Source: Fibrobacter succinogenes (GTDB lineage Bacteria; Fibrobacterota; Fibrobacteria; Fibrobacterales; Fibrobacteraceae). Taken from it: a stretch of DNA of 64,000 bases. A model generated the notes under the pieces. The model was not told where the DNA came from and did no database searches. It saw nothing but the letters and a program-made list of their open reading frames with translations. Positions 12,357 to 46,695 of the stretch are shown here, piece after piece. The DNA lies in assembly GCA_902756345.1 (NCBI GenBank), contig CACVQR010000012.1:1-64000 (forward strand). Reading direction: 5' to 3'. Numbering within the stretch: position 1 is the stretch's first letter; each line of letters opens with the position of its first letter. The position numbers and the translations under genes were made by a program.

Positions 12357-12371
12357 CGTTCCTCAAAAAGC

Positions 12372-12556
12372 GTTTCCCACAGTTCTTCTGGCTCGGGGCT
12401 CACTCTACTCCCGGCTCCTTCACATCGCAAGCGACATTGGTTCATGCCGGTTTCGTCCTCCCTTACAGCGGCGCGACCGCTCCCGGTTTTCACGGGATTC
12501 TCTCCTTGCGGGCCACCCAGTAGGGCTCCCGCATGGGCTTTTCAGGGCACAGGAAA
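12372..12556 (-). promoter_or_regulatory. cobalamin (adenosylcobalamin-class) riboswitch
   Basis: On the minus strand the leader shows the conserved core: GGTGGCCCGC, then GAATCCCGTGAAAACCGGG, AGCGGTCGCGCCGCTGTAA, a peripheral hairpin GTCGCTTGCGAT, and the B12-box variant GAGCCAGAAGAACTG (12380-12394). It ends about 20 nt before the btuB ATG, with no terminator U-tract between, so control of ribosome access is more likely than termination. A TATATTTG box at 12568-12575 is the likely promoter. Confidence 0.92.
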
Positions 12557-12567
12557 CTTTTCGCTTT

Positions 12568-12575
12568 CAAATATA
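12568..12575 (-). promoter_or_regulatory. -7 promoter box of the btuB leader
   Basis: TATATTTG on the minus strand, an exact TAnnTTTG match, 12 nt upstream of the riboswitch. No TTG at the expected distance. Confidence 0.5.
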
Positions 12576-34395: not shown

Positions 34396-34569
34396 TCATC
34401 CTCTCGGGTAACGCAGTTTCGCACCGCATTTTGGGCAACGCAGAATCAGTTCCTTAAGCCGTTTGATTTCCGCATCTTTTTCTTCTAGTACCTTGGCAAA
34501 ATCCCCGATGGCGTTGTTAGCACCGCGATTCGGGCCTCCGTTGAATTTTCCGAAAATTTCATCGAACAT
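34396..34569 (-). CDS. 57-residue coiled-coil and zinc-ribbon protein
   Basis: ATG 34569 behind AAGGAATAATT, 57 codons, TGA at 34396. Order: a short N-terminus (MFDEIFGKFNGGPNRG), a heptad-like helix (VLEEKDAEIKRLKELIL) and a half zinc ribbon CPKCGAKLRYPRG. Only two Cys are present, so zinc binding would need dimerisation through the coiled coil. It overlaps no other gene and ends 13 nt before the Schlafen-AlbA gene, so the two form an operon. Too short for most gene finders. Confidence 0.65.
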   Translation of the reverse strand: MFDEIFGKFNGGPNRGANNAIGDFAKVLEEKDAEIKRLKELILRCPKCGAKLRYPRG

Positions 34570-34899
34570 AATTATTCCTTATAAATTTTAGTTGAACGTC
34601 GCCATTGGGCGACAATTTGACTGGCCGTTGCGATTACGCCGAAAAACAGCGCACAACATGCCCTTGCTTATTTGTTATGTATTGAGATTTTCCACGCCTT
34701 GCGCGGAATGGGATGATCTTGCAATCCTGTTGGCGGGGGCTTTCCCCGGCGTTACTTGCCACTCTTTCAAGTGGACTCGAGTAGGTCGTATTCCTACCAG
34801 CTATCCAACAGAACCATCAAGAAGGTTGATGGGCCCCGCCGCGAATGCACGTACGGACCCGAAGGTCTATGTCGACTGTCACGAGGATTATCGAATATC
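34570..34899 (-). ncRNA. structured 5' leader RNA of the AlbA operon
   Basis: A 330-nt untranslated leader on the minus strand between a strong promoter and the 57-residue gene. Stems seen: four-way junction closed by CTGTTGG/CCAACAG (805-811 with 727-733 of 34,xxx), with hairpins GTAGG/CCTAC (34781-34797), CCACT/AGTGG (34759-34774) and CGGGG/CCCCG (34734-34748); CATCAA/TTGATG (34815-34831); GACC-TTCG-GGTC (34856-34867); TTCCGCGC/GCGTGGAA (34690-34708); GTCGCC/GGCGAC (34598-34613). The G-U pair in the 34690 stem exists only on the minus strand. No known riboswitch class was recognised. Confidence 0.6.
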
Positions 34900-34905
34900 G
34901 GCTAC

Positions 34906-34934
34906 AATATACACAAATAGATTGTCAAAGTCAA
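34906..34934 (-). promoter_or_regulatory. promoter of the AlbA operon leader
   Basis: TTGACT, 17-nt spacer, TATATT on the minus strand; the same site reads TTG-N20-TATATTGT. Start near 34899. Confidence 0.75.
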
Positions 34935-34981
34935 GGGATATATTATTTATCGCAACAATGAAAAAAAGCCCCTAAAATTGT

Positions 34982-35007
34982 CATGCCGGGTTTGACTCGG
35001 CATCTCC
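34982..35007. repeat. REP-like hairpin CATGCCGGGTTTGACTCGGCAT
   Basis: ATGCCG pairs with CGGCAT around GGTTTGACT. Hairpins of the form TCATGCCGG-N-CCGGCATCTCC are common dispersed repeats in many bacteria. It separates the two divergent RNA genes. Confidence 0.6.
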
Positions 35008-35040
35008 TTTTCTCTTCCAATTATTTATATTTCCCATTGA

Positions 35041-35255
35041 CATAGCCCCGTACCGAATGGTGCGGAGCGACCGGAATTTTTGAGATTCGTCTCTTATTCT
35101 CGCAACTGAAACTACCACTTTCAAACCAATCGAGAGTAAGACGAACACTCACGTCCCATCTGGGGCGTGGGTCGTTTGTGCTTATTGATTGGTAGGGTGT
35201 GGTAGCCCTCAGTTGCGGTAAGCACGCAAGAACGACTCCACGCCTTTTTTTTTTT
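35041..35255 (+). ncRNA. rod-shaped structured RNA, 6S-like
   Basis: Nearly continuous hairpin: CGCAACTGA/TCAGTTGCG (35101-35109 with 35209-35217), CTACCAC/GTGGTAG (35112-35118 with 35199-35205), a central bulge TTTCAA/AGGGT, ACCAATC/GATTGGT, AGTAAG/CTTATT, CGAAC/GTTTG, ACTCACG/CGTGGGT and a capped tip TCCC-ATCT-GGGG. A looser basal stem pairs 35082-35095 with 35228-35238. Four G-U pairs fit only the plus strand. Eleven T follow at 35245. TATATTTC at 35026 may be the promoter. Length and central bulge resemble 6S RNA, but its place in front of the putative defence operon allows another role. Confidence 0.7.
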
Positions 35256-35316
35256 CAAAAAAGTTGGAAATCGTTCATTTGCTGCAGGGACTTATCTCGC
35301 TGATAAGGATGCCCCT

Positions 35317-37245
35317 ATGGCAAAAATTGAGGTCATACAGACCGTTGATACATCGAACTTTAAGGCCGCTAACGCCGAAGAGCTGAAAAAGCAGATTGTT
35401 CACTATTTTGCCGAAAAAGGCTGTCCTCCAACAGTTGAAATCATTTCCGACAATACTGTCAAAATCATATTCGATACAGAAAACCTTGAATATGCCGAAA
35501 GGAATTTTCAGAAAGCGTCTTTAGCTTGCAGTGAAGGGCGTTTCAATGCGGCAATGGATTTGCTGCATAAGGCAATCAAGGCTTGTCCTGGATATTCTGA
35601 AGCTCATCGCCTTCTAGGCCAAGTTTTCTACCAGCAGGGCGAAATAGAGAAGGGCATGAATGAAGTCCTTGAGGCTCTTCTCATCGACCCGAAAAACATG
35701 TGGGCTCTCATCCTGATGGGAAACATCCTCGCCAATGGCAAGAACAATGCCGATGCCGCAGACAAATATTACAAAAAAGTTCTAGAATACTATCCCGACA
35801 ATGCCATCGCGCTCAACAATGTTGCGGGTACGCTCATTCGGAAAAAAGATTATGACAGCGCCATTCACTACATGAAACAAGCCCTTGAACTGGACAATAC
35901 CTACACAAACAGCTATTATGGGATTGCTTTAGCATACTATCACAAGGATGATTTGGACAACGCTTTTGAATACGCAAGTCAAGGTGCGCTGAAGGGCGCA
36001 AACCGCGCAGAAGACCCCGGTGTCCGTCAAGAACTTTTGAAATTGCTATTGACTATAGCAAGAGATATTGCAGAATCAACAGACTACGAATCCAAGGTAT
36101 TTGAATTTGCACACAGCCTTGAAACCAAGTATAATGTAACCATCAAATTTGAGCGCGATGACGAGCAGGACACCTTAGCACATTTGGAATTCGCCGATTT
36201 CCATCACAGCAAGGATCACGTAGTTAAATACAAGAAGGATGGCAACTACTGTCATTACATGCTTCATGAATTGACACACCTAGAAATGATGCTTTCTGCC
36301 CAAAGAAATGGAAAACTCCAGACCATCGGATTTACGCAGAAAAATTTTGACGCATTCTTGCTAGATTACAAACGTCATTTTGACGAAGTCAAGAAAAAGA
36401 TTGGCGCAATCCAATCAGAAAAGTTGGCGAAGCACTTGTTCCAGGGATTGTCATTGCAGGTGATGAATGCCCCGCTAGACTTGTTCGTGGAACAGAAAAT
36501 TTATGAGAAGGCGGAATTCAGGCCGCTTCAGTTGACATCTTTATTTGCAATGGAATCAAGCAACATCGATGCCGTGCGACAGACCGCGAATGTTGCTGAA
36601 TTTCCGCAAATTATCAAGGACACGAATAAACTGTTGAACATGCTTCAATCCTTGCTTTTACGCAAACTCTATGGATTGGATTTTGTCAATCAGTACAAGC
36701 CATCGCAAAACATGATGAACAGGGCAACAGAATTCTTCAAGGCATTTGAAGATTCTCTTGCATCGTTCAACGCAGGCGATGAATACGCTGTCTTTGAAAA
36801 GATTGCCACAGCACTCGGCTTAATAAAGTATTTCGCTCTTTCCTGCGTTGAAAAGAGTGAAATCAAGACAGAGGTCGACAGAAAGCAAGACCAGTTCAAC
36901 GAAACGCACAATCCCGCAAATGCAGACCCGATGATTACCATAATGATGTCTTCCTACATGGTCGGTGCGCTGGAATACTTTGAAGGGTTGCTGCCGGAAG
37001 ATATTGAAAAAGTCGCTTTTGAATGCGCCATGGTTGGACAAAATGGAATCAGCCCTGCACAAAAGAGCGGATACAAGTTGAACAATGTTCCTGGAAAAGA
37101 TTTTAGCGGTTATGAACTGCTCGCCTATTACTATGTAAGCTGGGCAATCTCGCATCCGGAAATGCTCGATAAACTGCACTTACCTTTTGCAGATGCCTAC
37201 AGTATGGCAAAGCAGATGTTTGATTCCAGACGAGGTGAAAAATGA
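35317..37245 (+). CDS. TPR protein with HExxH metallopeptidase-like domain
   Basis: A 642-residue protein. Residues about 55-240 are tetratricopeptide repeats (RFNAAMDLLHKAIKACPGY, NADAADKYYKKVLEYYPDN, DYDSAIHYMKQALELDNTY). The second half holds H317-E-L-T-H321 in YMLHELTHLEMML, a zinc-peptidase type motif, followed by helices with several Glu candidates for a third ligand (LDLFVEQKIYEKAEF). No signal peptide, so it should be cytoplasmic. AT-rich third positions contrast with the GC-rich genes outside. ATG follows a CTTATC/GATAAG hairpin that ends at GGATGCCCCT. First gene of a three-gene operon. Confidence 0.65.
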   Translation: MAKIEVIQTVDTSNFKAANAEELKKQIVHYFAEKGCPPTVEIISDNTVKIIFDTENLEYAERNFQKASLACSEGRFNAAMDLLHKAIKACPGYSEAHRLLGQVFYQQGEIEKGMNEVLEALLIDPKNMWALILMGNILANGKNNADAADKYYKKVLEYYPDNAIALNNVAGTLIRKKDYDSAIHYMKQALELDNTYTNSYYGIALAYYHKDDLDNAFEYASQGALKGANRAEDPGVRQELLKLLLTIARDIAESTDYESKVFEFAHSLETKYNVTIKFERDDEQDTLAHLEFADFHHSKDHVVKYKKDGNYCHYMLHELTHLEMMLSAQRNGKLQTIGFTQKNFDAFLLDYKRHFDEVKKKIGAIQSEKLAKHLFQGLSLQVMNAPLDLFVEQKIYEKAEFRPLQLTSLFAMESSNIDAVRQTANVAEFPQIIKDTNKLLNMLQSLLLRKLYGLDFVNQYKPSQNMMNRATEFFKAFEDSLASFNAGDEYAVFEKIATALGLIKYFALSCVEKSEIKTEVDRKQDQFNETHNPANADPMITIMMSSYMVGALEYFEGLLPEDIEKVAFECAMVGQNGISPAQKSGYKLNNVPGKDFSGYELLAYYYVSWAISHPEMLDKLHLPFADAYSMAKQMFDSRRGEK

Positions 37246-37571
37246 GCGACTTTGAAAAAATGAAAACGAAGGTCAAACAATTCACCATTGACCGCGACTG
37301 GGACCAATTTCACAACGGCAAGGACCTCGCCATTGCCCTTTCTGGCGAGGCATCGGAACTTCTCAATGCGTTCCTTTGGAAGAAACCTGAAGATGTAAAA
37401 ATTGAAAAGGTGCGTGAAGAATTAGCCGATGTGCTTAATTATGCTTTTTTAATTGCAGACAAGTATAATCTTGATATTGAGCAAATCATGGATGAAAAGT
37501 TGAAAGTTAACGAAGAAAAATATCCCGTTGATAAGGCTAAAGGATCTGCGAAGAAGTATAACGAGTTGTAA
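37242..37571 (+). CDS. MazG-like nucleotide pyrophosphohydrolase
   Basis: A 109-residue all-alpha NTP pyrophosphohydrolase of the short MazG/RS21-C6 type. The Mg-binding motif ExxE12-28ExxD is seen as SGEASELLNAF and REELADVLNYAF. It would hydrolyse (d)NTPs to monophosphates, either as house-cleaning or to deplete nucleotides. It overlaps the upstream gene by 4 nt (ATGA) and lies 11 nt before the nuclease-helicase gene; MazG-like genes are often found beside DUF2075 helicases. Confidence 0.88.
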   Translation: MSDFEKMKTKVKQFTIDRDWDQFHNGKDLAIALSGEASELLNAFLWKKPEDVKIEKVREELADVLNYAFLIADKYNLDIEQIMDEKLKVNEEKYPVDKAKGSAKKYNEL

Positions 37572-37582
37572 GGGGTGTTGAA

Positions 37583-39595
37583 ATGTCTCATAGCCGAGTC
37601 ATCTATCAAGCGGAACAAACAGACTTTTTCACAGATGTCCTGCTGAATCAGGTTGCAGACAAAATGCGAGAGACGGCTGCTGTATTAAATTTTAAACCAG
37701 GATTATCTGAAATCGCTTCATGGAGAAACAATGCTCCTAAAATAAAGAATCTACTTGAATTGTCTGGTGTGCAAAATTCCTACGTAACCTTTGAATACCT
37801 TGTTCCCTATAACAGGAAACGAATTGACTGTATGATATATGGTCGAGGAAATGACAATAAAGGGTCTGTCGTTCATTTGGAATTAAAACAATGGAGTAAT
37901 GAAGGAGTAACTCCAGCACCATCAGAAGGCAATTTTGATATTGTAGAAGACGAATTCACCGATGAAAATGTCGTGTATCGCGTCAACGCCGTTACAGGAG
38001 GCGGAGTTAGAACGGTAGCGCATCCGTCTCAACAGGTTCGTGGTTACAATGATTATTTGAAGGGGTTCGTTGAAGTTTTAAGCGAAAAAGAGCTCAATTT
38101 AACAGGCGCAGCTTATTGTTATAATTACAGAAGAAACAATGCTGATAATACAGCTTTATACGACTCTCGCTACAACAAGCTCTTAACGCAGTACCGCACC
38201 TATGCTGGCGATGAAGTTCGTGATTTAGCAAATTTGCTTAAAGCTGTTTTGGGAAATGGAGACGGACTCAATGTTTTCAACAAGATGATGAATTCTCCGA
38301 TTCGTCCTTCAAAAAAACTACTTGATTCAGCCTCTAATTTAATACATGACGGCAATGCAGATGCATTTTCTCTCATTGAAGATCAAATCGTAGCAAGAAA
38401 TATAATCCTTGACAAAATCCGAAATTTGCATAAAACGCAAGAAAAATCCGTCATATTGGTAAAAGGCGGTCCTGGGACGGGGAAAACCGTAATTGCATTG
38501 CATTTATTAGCCCTGATCGCCGGAATGAAAGGACGAAGTCTAAACGTCCATTATGCCACAAAATCAAAACCACTGTTAGAAGGAGTAAAACATCAACTTC
38601 CTCGCGGATCAAAAGCCAAAATGCTCTTTCATAACGTGACCCAATATGTTCCGGCAAATTGTAACGAAAATGAAATTGACGTATTGATGGTAGACGAAGC
38701 TCATCGAATGACAAATTCTTCGAATAATCAATACACACCTGCCGAAAAAAGAACAGACATGCCCCAAGTCGAAACGTTAATACGGGCATCGAAGGTGGCA
38801 GTCTTTTTTATTGATGATAAGCAGGCCATTCGCGGGGTTGAAATTGGTTCAAGCGATTTGATTCGAGAATATGCAAAGAAATACAATGCAAAAATAGAGG
38901 AAGTCCAATTAAAGTCGCAATTCCGTTGCAATGGTTCGGACAATTACTTAGATTGGCTAGAACAACTTCTCTATAACCAACGAGCCTCGGCCTTTTTTGA
39001 AGAAGAAGAATTTGATTTTAAAATTTTTGACACTCCAAAAGATTTGTACGCTGCTATCTTAGAAAAAAATTCCTTGCCTCAAATGACTGCGAGACTTTGC
39101 GCAGGATTTTGCTGGCCATGGTCAAGCGATTTAGATAAAGACGGAAACCTAGTTAAAGACGTCCATATTGGTGATTTCGCAATGCCCTGGGAAACAAAAG
39201 ACACTATAAAGAAGATTCCTGATGGGTACGTAAAATGGTATGAATGGGCATACAAACCTGAAGGGATTAAACAGATTGGTTGTATCTACACCGCCCAAGG
39301 TTTTGAATTTGATTATATCGGCGTAATTATTGGCCCTGATCTATACTACAATAATTATACTGGACGTATTGAAACAAATATTAAGGAATCCAAAGACCCC
39401 GTTCTAAAACGCAGCGGCGAAAAAGTCGATGAGTACATCCGTAATATTTACCGTGTTCTAATGAGTCGAGGAATGAAGGGGTGCTACGTATATTTCTGCG
39501 ACAAACCATTACGGCATTACATTGAGCAAAGGCTCAAGGCATGCGCACCGGATATGCTGATAGCTGCAGAAAAGAAAGTCATTTACAAAGCATAA
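37583..39595 (+). CDS. PD-(D/E)XK nuclease fused to Schlafen-group-3 helicase (DUF2075)
   Basis: A 670-residue protein. N-terminal residues about 60-110 look like a PD-(D/E)XK nuclease (Asp in NRKRIDCMIYG, then VVHLELKQW with the ExK pair). The DUF2075 helicase follows: Walker A KGGPGTGKTVIAL (about 292-304), Walker B LMVDEAHRM (about 367), motif KSQFRCNGSDNYLDWL, and a C-terminal CIYTAQGFEFDYIGVIIGPDL plus RVLMSRGMKGCYVYF motifs. Start behind AAGGGGTGTTGAA. AT-rich composition. Together with the two upstream genes it suggests a nucleic-acid-directed defence system. Confidence 0.82.
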   Translation: MSHSRVIYQAEQTDFFTDVLLNQVADKMRETAAVLNFKPGLSEIASWRNNAPKIKNLLELSGVQNSYVTFEYLVPYNRKRIDCMIYGRGNDNKGSVVHLELKQWSNEGVTPAPSEGNFDIVEDEFTDENVVYRVNAVTGGGVRTVAHPSQQVRGYNDYLKGFVEVLSEKELNLTGAAYCYNYRRNNADNTALYDSRYNKLLTQYRTYAGDEVRDLANLLKAVLGNGDGLNVFNKMMNSPIRPSKKLLDSASNLIHDGNADAFSLIEDQIVARNIILDKIRNLHKTQEKSVILVKGGPGTGKTVIALHLLALIAGMKGRSLNVHYATKSKPLLEGVKHQLPRGSKAKMLFHNVTQYVPANCNENEIDVLMVDEAHRMTNSSNNQYTPAEKRTDMPQVETLIRASKVAVFFIDDKQAIRGVEIGSSDLIREYAKKYNAKIEEVQLKSQFRCNGSDNYLDWLEQLLYNQRASAFFEEEEFDFKIFDTPKDLYAAILEKNSLPQMTARLCAGFCWPWSSDLDKDGNLVKDVHIGDFAMPWETKDTIKKIPDGYVKWYEWAYKPEGIKQIGCIYTAQGFEFDYIGVIIGPDLYYNNYTGRIETNIKESKDPVLKRSGEKVDEYIRNIYRVLMSRGMKGCYVYFCDKPLRHYIEQRLKACAPDMLIAAEKKVIYKA

Positions 39596-41660: not shown

Positions 41661-43598
41661 ATGTCTCAAATCGAACTCACCTTCCCCGATGGCTCCGTAC
41701 GTTCCGTAGCATCGGGCACCACCGGCCTCGAAATTGCGAAGGGCATTTCCGAAGGTCTTGCACGCAAGGCGCTTGGCGTCAAACTCGGCGATAAGGTCCT
41801 CGACCTCACGCGCCCGCTTACCGAGAGCGGCACCATCAAGATTATCACGCCGAGCAACGACGACCCGGATGCTCTGATGCTCCTGCGTCACAGCTGCAGC
41901 CACGTGCTCGCCGAAGCTATCTGCGACTTGTTCCCGGGCACTAAGCTCGCTTACGGTCCGGCTATCGAAAAGGGTTTCTACTACGATTTGATGACACCGA
42001 CCCCGATCCAGCAGTCGGATTTCGAGCGCATCGAAAAGCGCATGAAGGAAATCATCAAGGAAGACCGTCCGTTTACCCGTTGCGAAGTCAGCGCCGCCGA
42101 TGGCCTGAAGCGCACCGAGGGCGACAAGTACAAGACGGATAACGCGCAGCGCGCTCTCGCCCGCGAGGGTAGCGACGGTACACTCAGCTTCTACGTGACT
42201 GGCGAACCGGGCAAGAACTTTGAAGACCTCTGCGCCGGCCCCCACGTGCCTTCTACCGGCAAGCTCAAGAATTTCAAGGTGCTCTCGATGTCCGGTGCTT
42301 ACTGGCATGGCGACCAGAACAGCGACCAGCTGACCCGCGTGTACGGCACCTGCTTTGCCGACAAGGAAGGTCTCGAAACTTACCTGAAGTTCCTGGAAGA
42401 AGCCGAAAAGCGCGACCACCGCAAGATCGGCAAGGAAATGGACCTCTACCACATCGAAGACCATTCTCCGGGCATGGTGTTCTGGCATCCGAAGGGCACC
42501 AAGATGGTGAACGCCCTCAAGGACTACATCCGCGGCAAGATTGACCGTCGTGGCTACCTCGAAGTGATCACGCCGGAAATCGTGAACAAGACTTTGTGGA
42601 TCAAGTCCGGCCACGCCGACAAGTACAACGAGAACATGTTCAAGACGCTGGCTGGCGACGTGGAAATGGCCGTGAAGCCGATGAACTGCCCCTGCCACAT
42701 CCAGATTTTCAACACGGGTCTCCGCAGCTGGCGCGACCTGCCGATGCGCCTTGCCGAATTCGGCAAGTGCCACCGTTACGAACCTGCCGGTACGATGCAC
42801 GGCCTGATGCGCGTGCGCGGCTTTGTGCAGGACGACGCCCACATCTTCTGTACCGAAGACCAGATTGCAAGCGAAGTGGCCGACTTCTGCGCCCTCGTCA
42901 AGGAAATCTACCACGACTTCGGTTTCGACGATATCGTGGTGAAGTTCTCCACCCGCCCCGAAAAGCGCGTGGGTTCCGACGAAATCTGGGACAAGGCTGA
43001 AGCCGCCCTCGCCGAAGCCACCAAGCTCGCTGGCCTCGACTACATTCTGAATCCGGGCGAAGGCGCCTTCTACGGCCCGAAGCTGGAATTCACGCTGAAG
43101 GACTCCCTCGGTCGTGACTGGCAGTGCGGAACCATCCAGGTGGACTTCAACCTCCCGCAGCGTCTGGGTGCTGAATATGTCGGCAAGGACAACCAGAAGC
43201 ACATTCCGGTGATGTTGCACCGCGCAGCAGTCGGTTCCATCGAACGCTTCCTCGGTATTCTTATCGAAGAGTTCATGGGCGATTTCCCGCTGTGGCTCGC
43301 TCCGGTTCAGGCCCGCGTGCTCCCGATTTCCGAGAAGTTCGTTGACTACGCGAAGCAGGTCGAGAAGGAACTCGTGAACGCCGGCGTCCGCGTGGAAGTC
43401 GACGAATCCAACGAGAAACTCGGCTACAAGATCCGCCAGTGCGAATTGCAGAAGGTGCCTTACCTCCTCATCGTGGGCGAGAAGGAAGTTGCCGACGGCG
43501 TCGTGTCCGTGCGCCGCCGTAAAGAGGGTGATAAGGGTTCGATGACCGTTGCCCAGTTCTTGGAAATGACCGCTGAAGACCGCAAGGTTGTGAGATAA
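41661..43598 (+). CDS. thrS: threonyl-tRNA synthetase
   Basis: Charges tRNA-Thr; class II synthetase. The 645 residues give all expected domains: TGS (1-60), second editing/SAD domain (about 70-225; RHSCSHVLAEAI, CAGPHVPSTGKLKNF), catalytic core (about 245-535; MNCPCHIQIF with the zinc Cys, [39 protein letters not shown]) and anticodon-binding domain (about 540-645). Strong codon bias as for other highly expressed genes here. It is flanked by inverted copies of the three-hairpin element, and its 3' part is repeated as a pseudogene 2.3 kb downstream. Confidence 0.98.
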   Translation: MSQIELTFPDGSVRSVASGTTGLEIAKGISEGLARKALGVKLGDKVLDLTRPLTESGTIKIITPSNDDPDALMLLRHSCSHVLAEAICDLFPGTKLAYGPAIEKGFYYDLMTPTPIQQSDFERIEKRMKEIIKEDRPFTRCEVSAADGLKRTEGDKYKTDNAQRALAREGSDGTLSFYVTGEPGKNFEDLCAGPHVPSTGKLKNFKVLSMSGAYWHGDQNSDQLTRVYGTCFADKEGLETYLKFLEEAEKRDHRKIGKEMDLYHIEDHSPGMVFWHPKGTKMVNALKDYIRGKIDRRGYLEVITPEIVNKTLWIKSGHADKYNENMFKTLAGDVEMAVKPMNCPCHIQIFNTGLRSWRDLPMRLAEFGKCHRYEPAGTMHGLMRVRGFVQDDAHIFCTEDQIASEVADFCALVKEIYHDFGFDDIVVKFSTRPEKRVGSDEIWDKAEAALAEATKLAGLDYILNPGEGAFYGPKLEFTLKDSLGRDWQCGTIQVDFNLPQRLGAEYVGKDNQKHIPVMLHRAAVGSIERFLGILIEEFMGDFPLWLAPVQARVLPISEKFVDYAKQVEKELVNAGVRVEVDESNEKLGYKIRQCELQKVPYLLIVGEKEVADGVVSVRRRKEGDKGSMTVAQFLEMTAEDRKVVR

Positions 43599-45887: not shown

Positions 45888-46695
45888 CGAAGTGGCCGAC
45901 TTCTGCGCCCTCGTGAAGGAAAAGCGTGCAAGCCGAGTGTCGCGACAAAATGCTTGCATTTTGGCATAACCGAGGCGCAGCCGCGGACGCCAAAGGCGTC
46001 AAATCTACCACGACTTCGGTTTCGACGATATCGTGGTGAAGTTCTCCACCCGCCCGGAAAAGCGCGTGGGTTCCGACGAAATCTGGGACAAGGCTGAAGC
46101 CGCCCTCGCCGAAGCGACGAAGCTCGCTGGCCTCGACTACATTTTGAACCCGGGTGAAGGTGCCTTCTACGGCCCGAAGCTCGAATTCACGCTGAAGGAC
46201 AGCCTCGGACGTGACTGGCAGTGCGGTACCATCCAGGTGGACTTCAACTTGCCGCAGCGCCTGGGTGCCGAGTATGTCGGCAAGGACAACCAGAAGCACA
46301 TCCCGGTGATGCTTCACCGTGCCGCCGTGGGTTCCATCGAACGCTTCCTCGGTATTCTTATCGAAGAATTCATGGGCGATTTCCCGCTGTGGCTCGCTCC
46401 GGTTCAGGCCCGCGTGCTCCCGATTTCCGAGAAGTTCGTTGACTACGCAAAGCAGGTCGAGAAGGAACTCGTGAACGCCGGCGTCCGCGTGGAAGTCGAC
46501 GAATCCAACGAAAAGCTCGGCTACAAGATCCGCCAGTGCGAATTGCAGAAGGTGCCTTACCTCCTGATTGTGGGAGAGAAGGAAGTTGCCGATGGTGTTG
46601 TCTCTGTTCGCCGCCGTAAAGAGGGTGACAAGGGCAGCATGAAGGTCGCCGACTTCCTCAAGATGACGGAAGAAGACCGTAAGGTTGTGCGGTAA
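45888..46695 (+). pseudogene. thrS: partial second copy of thrS with a 78-bp insertion
   Basis: Repeats the last 40 percent of thrS (from CGAAGTGGCCGACTTCTGCG, equivalent to 42874, to the stop). After AAGGAAA a 78-bp hairpin-rich insert (45923-46000; AAAATGC/GCATTTT and GACGCC/GGCGTC stems) is flanked by AAA on both sides; the copy then continues open to the stop as a 220-residue frame from GTG/ATG near 46033. It keeps the end of the catalytic core and the anticodon domain but lacks TGS, editing and most catalytic parts. Differences are mostly synonymous, with five changes in the last 18 residues ([20 protein letters not shown]). Not expected to charge tRNA. Confidence 0.88.

Follow-up and report, generated by a model that had tools for sequence, protein, structure and literature searches.

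A leader RNA with two exclusive folds, probably a transcription attenuator, precedes restriction-modification and other operons in Fibrobacter

The RNA encoded at positions 35041–35255 of the window (the whole stretch of 64,000 nucleotides from Fibrobacter succinogenes analysed here) was found to have two folds that are conserved, covarying alternatives sharing strands, and to lie upstream of, and co-directional with, many operons. We consider it probable that this RNA is a cis-acting transcription attenuator, being one copy of a multi-copy leader family of Fibrobacter and relatives. The RNA most likely regulates the genes behind it, with a long rod as its proposed ON state and a signal acting in trans that would choose the fold. 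Attenuator logic as such is known, and Rfam 15 has no entry for this RNA family; what is new is the finding of one leader before every main type of restriction system. The parts of the RNA, from 5′ to 3′, and the genes behind it are as follows.

35024–35032, plus strand: AT-rich promoter-like box TTTATATTT, with TT at −8/−7 from the conserved G of GACATAG
35039–35045, plus strand: conserved 5′ sequence GACATAG, probable transcript start
35045–35068, plus strand: P0 hairpin, variable in letters with the pairing maintained
35082–35093, plus strand: P1 hairpin GAGA-UUCG-UCUC, with compensatory changes in relatives
35093–35101, plus strand: region 1 (CUUAUUCUC), partner of region 2 (fold B) or, partly, of UAAG at 35219–35222 (fold A)
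35101–35217, plus strand: rod of fold A, the proposed antiterminator, with 97.0% of cells paired in 63 copies (a figure that covers all of fold A, P0 included)
35101–35108 / 35210–35217, plus strand: hypervariable covarying stem V1 of the rod
35108–35122, plus strand: HP-a, GAAA-[CUACCAC]-UUUC, a weak local alternative for the 5′ half of the central stem
35126–35133 / 35185–35192, plus strand: hypervariable covarying stem V2 of the rod
35132–35156, plus strand: region 2, partner of region 1 (fold B) or region 3 (fold A)
35163–35186, plus strand: region 3, partner of region 2 (fold A) or region 4 (fold B)
35195–35208, plus strand: HP-b, GGGU-[loop]-GCCC, a local alternative for the 3′ half of the central stem, with a loop complementary to the HP-a loop
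35219–35244, plus strand: region 4, the 3′ arm of the terminator hairpin, with covariation in the 3:4 helix
35245–35255, plus strand: terminator U-tract of 11 T, with T at positions 211–214 in 97–100% of 118 copies
35317–37245, plus strand: downstream gene 1, a 642-aa TPR protein with an HExxH motif (HELTH, by eye)
37242–37571, plus strand: downstream gene 2, a MazG-like protein
37583–39595, plus strand: downstream gene 3, a Schlafen group 3 (SLFN-g3) helicase, with weak PADLOC similarity only

On the plus strand, the segment 35041–35255 folded with a minimum free energy of −87.1 kcal/mol, compared with −58.3 ± 4.2 for shuffled sequences (z = −6.8, with 0 of 200 shuffles as good), which together with the covarying rod pairs bore out the original prediction of a rod-shaped RNA of fixed fold. 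The minus strand folded well too (z = −5.8), as expected from the inverted repeats. That the RNA is on the plus strand had been proposed from G-U pairs, and these were fixed or nearly so in relatives, with rod pair 114–135 being U-G in 63 of 63 copies and pair 86–161 being U-G in 58 of these and C-G in five; since near-invariant G-U pairs of the rod would be A-C on the opposite strand, the assignment stands. The eleven T predicted to follow the rod are present at 35245–35255, and the start codon of the operon, at 35317, lies 61 nt past this run. The earlier description of one almost continuous helix had to be corrected, as a central 7-bp stem sits between two internal loops, the flanking strands of which can self-pair (AAA with UUU, GGG with CCC). 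In this stem, CUACCAC:GUGGUAG, one strand is flanked by AAA and UUU and the other by GGG and CCC, so that each can form its own hairpin and the two loops are complementary. Among 119 sequences, HP-a was weak (87.9% and 83.6% of cells paired), and HP-b had 87.9% of cells paired, with one pair occurring as G-C in 60, C-G in 20, U-G in 6 and U-A in 5. These paired local hairpins may aid the exchange between the two folds.

The 5′ end was analysed using 60 distinct upstream sequences aligned on [GA]ACATA. T was present at −8 in 58/60 and at −7 in 56/60, and positions −19 to −7 before GACATAG were nearly all A/T. The first G of GACATAG was found in 59/60 and the last in 60/60, these being the only informative letters of the motif because the sequences were picked by the [GA]ACATA search. 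T8 was conserved in 94% of 118 aligned copies. From this pattern of letters the AT-rich box is promoter-like, with transcription probably starting near GACATAG. The pairs of P0 changed on both sides in 4/7 cases among 63 sequences and in 7/7 among 119, and the GAGA/UCUC of P1 becomes GAGU/ACUC or GAGU/GCUC in relatives (as in GAGU-UUCG-ACUC). A small hairpin, CTTATCTCGCTGATAAG or near variants, was also seen between the U-tract and the start codon (35291–35307 in the window), and at the equivalent place in L040, L042, L045, L057, L059 and L060 ahead of different genes; copies lacking it carry other hairpin-like sequences before the start codon.

For covariation, we defined fold A as P0, the rod and a basal helix in which region 1 pairs with the UAAG of region 4, and fold B as the 1:2 hairpin together with the 3:4 terminator hairpin. 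Since these share strands, they are mutually exclusive. Alignment A1 contained 63 of 72 near full-length copies, nine rows having been removed before counting (L051, L067, L085 and L086 with deletions, L053 and L080 with a rearranged 5′ part, and L073, L078 and L054:5763), and alignment A3 contained 119 matches from 100 loci. Fold A changed on both sides in 28/56 pairs among the 63 copies, with 395 such cells against 98 ± 10 in shuffled alignments (0/500 as high), the cells being counts of sequences and not independent events; in 119 copies 47/56 pairs had changed on both sides (again counting all of fold A, with P0), and the basal helix was paired in 93.4% of cells. Fold B was tested on A3, an alignment built by a model of fold A alone, and with the two local hairpins included it was paired in 94.0% of cells, with changes on both sides in 26/33 pairs and 170 such cells against 48 in shuffles (0/500 as high), while slid controls gave 44–56% pairing; because both kinds of control preserve the relatedness only in part, the strength of covariation is not to be read as a probability. 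Taken by helix, the 1:2 pairing reached 94.6% of cells with both-side changes in 6/9 pairs, and the 3:4 helices reached 97.9, 96.7 and 98.3% with such changes in 15/16 pairs. In the 63 close copies fold B plus P0 was paired in 98.1% of cells, with 37 both-side cells against 7.6 in shuffles; there the 1:2 helix had a single both-side pair (66 with 97, in five copies) and the 3:4 helices four. The covariation of 1:2 and 3:4 thus comes mostly from divergent copies, because the terminator and rod-tip pairs are strongly conserved in sequence among close relatives; in divergent copies such as L145 and L127 both terminator arms have been rebuilt. A separate idea, that V1 and V2 differ among copies of the same genome as barcodes against cross-pairing, was dropped as not significant: using the 105/119 rows with complete stems, near-identical within-genome pairs numbered 2/115 for V1 against 5.9 in permutations (29/500 as low), and 3 against 3.3 for V2 (287/500 as low).

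The two folds were also close in computed energy, at −86.6 for fold A and −84.0 for fold B in the window copy and at means of −77.4 and −75.8 over the 63 copies, these means including rows misaligned to fold A (L074, L031:14810 and others) that have falsely poor A energies. Prefix folding gave the 1:2 hairpin at nt 106 in 60/63 copies, the rod at nt 183 in 58/63 and the rod at full length in 55/63. The alternative pairing of GGCGTGGGTCG (35165–35175) with CGACTCCACGCC (35233–35244) that had been predicted is present and covaries in relatives, and its proposed ability to switch the terminator is supported by the two covarying exclusive folds of close energy. One of these conserved folds places a hairpin directly before the U-tract. 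Two exclusive folds, and a predicted 1:2 pairing followed by the rod, make up the layout of a transcription attenuator.

Such an attenuator would work in the following manner. Transcription would begin near GACATAG and region 1 would pair first with region 2, whereupon the emerging region 3 could draw region 2 away to build the rod. This would leave region 4 without a partner, so that no terminator would form and transcription would read through into the operon. Were the 1:2 hairpin held, region 3 would be free to pair with region 4, giving a terminator before the U-tract and a stop of transcription. A trans signal acting on the 5′ part, be it a protein, a metabolite or transcription kinetics, would select the fold. 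We lean slightly towards the rod state as the default in the cell. With regards to the signal, the mixed partner genes make a metabolite linked to a single enzyme improbable; a protein, a stress nucleotide or the speed of transcription fits better. Leaders with an exchange of terminator and antiterminator are well known from the trp operon, T-boxes and SAM riboswitches. The Fibrobacter RNA follows the four-region logic of attenuator and riboswitch leaders (1:2 with a 3:4 terminator, or a 2:3 antiterminator) and likewise lies just before a start codon, but it differs from T-boxes and Rfam aptamers in giving no model match and in preceding operons without a common metabolite.

A DNA similarity search gave matches in 79/80 genomes of the genus, and a covariance model (R1) built on the 63 copies gave 525 matches in the 80 genomes, with a median of 5 per genome, 7 in the source genome and up to 18 in one genome. 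Within the phylum, R1 matched 92/167 genomes in 7/40 genera of three families. Among the matches listed, the named members were Fibrobacter (F. intestinalis ATCC 43854 and many F. succinogenes MAGs). The order of promoter-like box, GACATAG, two small hairpins, rod and U-tract was found across copies, and those in other families of the phylum (L138–L144) had the same layout with little sequence identity. In a long subfamily of 278–290 nt (L106, L107, L114, L098, L100 and others) the rod tip bears an additional large domain; genes for C5 methyltransferases and for Fib_succ_major proteins follow these copies, in many cases after a longer spacer. A truncated copy was seen 57 nt before a full copy (L103:596–679, genome G144), and three DUF805 RNAs (RF03081) lie within 1.2 kb just after a divergent copy (L145:460–1614). 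The model also matched contigs labelled Bacteroidales, Treponema or Tannerellaceae (L223, 143.6 bits; L205, 116.1; L225, 94.5; L198, 54.5), which are either mis-binned Fibrobacter contigs or cases of transfer. Pattern matches in Pseudomonas (L166, L204, L209) were taken as chance, as the covariance model does not match them. Searches of plasmids and phages gave no copy of the RNA, a single pattern giving 0 stretches in IMG/VR. None of the 4227 models of Rfam 15 covered the RNA, with no hit at E ≤ 10 in 34900–35330, and at E ≤ 1 the only hit on a copy in eight loci including divergent copies was a sub-threshold chance match to a plant microRNA (L144). A search of the open-licence PMC literature found no description of the family, which is weak evidence of absence; the accessible text of PMC2864571 has Fibrobacter only in a reference title, and that of PMC11109978 does not contain the name.

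For the genes behind the RNA, we used a set of 75 copies, comprising the window and 60 loci (L031–L090) from the top of the DNA similarity list, and downstream genes were typed by sequence cluster, with Pfam run on representatives and not on every first gene. The first ORF of at least 70 aa was co-directional in 73/75 and started within 150 nt in 71, as against a background of 145/266 co-directional genes downstream of gaps ≥250 nt long in these loci, counting both strands. For 63 further matches the ORF was co-directional in 58 and within 150 nt in 41. Being chosen from the top of the list, the 75 copies are biased towards close relatives; 46 of them lead a restriction-modification gene (type III Mod, type ISP/IIG, MmeI, an EcoRI-type methylase, HsdM, HsdR or HsdM-HsdS fusions), 8 the TPR-MazG-SLFN operon, 8 a three-gene cassette without known domains and 12 other genes (EndoU, DUF4417, an acyltransferase, a secreted-looking protein of 2316 aa and unknowns), with 1 at a contig end. 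As a less biased sample we took all 49 matches in eight genomes, including the 7 of the source genome. A DNA methyltransferase or restriction gene is the first or the second one behind 25 of these (for L121 similarity to the type ISP cluster was also used); 14 lead surface-protein-like genes (some by Fib_succ_major or repeat Pfam families, others by their N-terminus as judged by eye), 2 the TPR operon and 1 EndoU, with 7 being unknown, truncated or not fetched. Since divergent copies precede surface proteins, the RNA is not confined to defence. Counted in reverse, the RNA was within 4 kb upstream of 10/47 PF02384 loci and 3/7 PF01555 loci in the eight genomes, from which it follows that most restriction-modification genes do without it. 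The leader thus marks a subset of restriction operons together with a second class of genes.

The original prediction had suggested that the RNA could be a functional part of the nuclease-helicase system behind it. It does lead that operon, but the suggestion is only half right: many unrelated operons, most of them restriction-modification, have this leader in common, and it does not belong solely to the TPR-MazG-helicase operon. This operon, for which PADLOC returned no system in the window, looks like an undescribed defence candidate, and was also found in L040, L042, L059, L067, L075 and L078 with exchangeable N-terminal domains (GIY-YIG in L059). The three-gene cassette (about 224, 139 and 119 aa) belongs to no Pfam or NCBIfam family and has its own copy of the RNA; it lies directly upstream of a second copy and another operon, mostly restriction-modification (L031:5408–6860, L032, L034, L035, L036, L037 and L072, with a variant in L038).

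Among other explanations, the RNA could be a small RNA acting in trans, or an RNA antitoxin, some 210 nt long and equipped with a separate promoter and terminator, while the gene behind it is expressed from elsewhere; this would agree with the promoter-like box, the strong terminator and the high conservation. We hold this to be improbable: a constant terminator needs no conserved alternative pairings of its own arms, and unrelated partner genes argue against a protein-specific antitoxin. No repeat array was found in the region either, with no direct repeats of the kind seen in type III toxin–antitoxin systems in 34500–35400. A precedent does exist in RCd22, upstream of abiF in Clostridioides difficile, described in the accessible part of the article both as antitoxin-like and as a terminated leader (PMC12373285). 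According to the same part its authors suggest a riboswitch-like read-through upon phage stimuli (PMC12373285). The likeness lies in a structured RNA with promoter and terminator of its own directly before a defence gene (PMC12373285, as far as accessible), the promoter of the Fibrobacter RNA being inferred. RCd22, as given there, has two short repeated motifs and one protein family (PMC12373285), whereas the Fibrobacter RNA has no repeat array, a 120-nt rod and many unrelated partner systems.

Very unlikely, in our view, is a site acting at the DNA level, by attC-like or homologous recombination, for docking of defence cargo with the RNA fold being secondary. It would account for the different cargo found behind the RNA at the same chromosomal site: L043 and L067 are 98.2% identical over 1 kb upstream and the RNA and then diverge, leading HsdR and the TPR operon, respectively, and of 40 pairs with a common upstream flank 33 lose homology 200–249 nt after the RNA start, while in 81 of 93 pairs with common cargo homology begins at −25 to +49. 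Homology ending at the edges of the RNA is, however, partly expected because every copy has the RNA, and the fixed G-U pairs and one-sided U-tract mark an RNA on one strand. The attC sites of integrons are imperfect palindromes with a variable yet paired middle, next to exchangeable cargo. The Fibrobacter RNA resembles them in all three respects, but differs in its strand-specific G-U pairs, its U-tract, its upstream leader position and its two alternative folds.

Attenuation through a leader peptide, as in trp, is more doubtful still. A frame stopping just before region 1 (ATG GTG CGG AGC GAC CGG AAT TTT TGA) is present in the window and in many copies, and its peptide MVRSDRNF had seemed conserved by eye; any ATG frame ending there was found in only 47/72 copies, and the peptide was dropped since 25/72 lack one. 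The frame was moreover lost where the letters of P0 differ, with P0 pairing retained, and the RNA thereby differs from trp-type leaders in having no conserved leader peptide. As for 6S RNA, a single housekeeping gene to which the long rod with bulges had been likened, this identity was rejected on copy number and context and has next to no probability left: RF00013 gave 0 matches in the whole genome (a model that also misses most controls, finding 5/14), and the RNA is a leader with a terminator/antiterminator just before genes, of which each genome has several to many copies, at loci unrelated to one another. The original prediction had reasoned that a clear 6S match together with presence at unrelated loci in relatives would indicate a housekeeping RNA; the unrelated loci were indeed found, but the RNA is not housekeeping either.

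Returning to the attenuator, the D12-methyl and similar orphan RNA motifs are further RNAs that lie upstream of DNA methyltransferase genes. The Fibrobacter RNA shares this position, and differs in that no Rfam match at E ≤ 1 was obtained on the copy at a D12 methyltransferase locus (L104); the open-licence PMC search found no paper on the D12-methyl motif.

The controls of restriction systems that we know of, such as C proteins and antisense promoters, are system-specific, and how restriction systems are controlled safely for the host and how many are coordinated at once is largely an open question. Here, restriction systems of type I, II, IIG/ISP and III, which differ in descent, have one structured two-state RNA in front of them within a single phylum, making this a directly testable case of a shared RNA-level control of a defence repertoire, with one hypothetical ligand or protein as a handle for finding the cue. 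As a tentative extension, which we regard as possible and rather unlikely, the leader could be a ‘defence riboswitch’: one sensor RNA before exchangeable restriction-modification operons and some surface proteins would sense one cue for the whole cell, given by infection or incoming DNA or by the lack of such a cue, and would set that part of the repertoire jointly, the RNA also serving as a socket for swapped cargo.

Two further features of the window were seen. A cobalamin riboswitch (RF00174, 81.1 bits) lies at 12361–12569 on the minus strand, and a partial second copy of the 3′ part of a threonyl-tRNA synthetase gene (named by eye) is present at 46033–46695, 2.4 kb after the full gene at 41661–43598.
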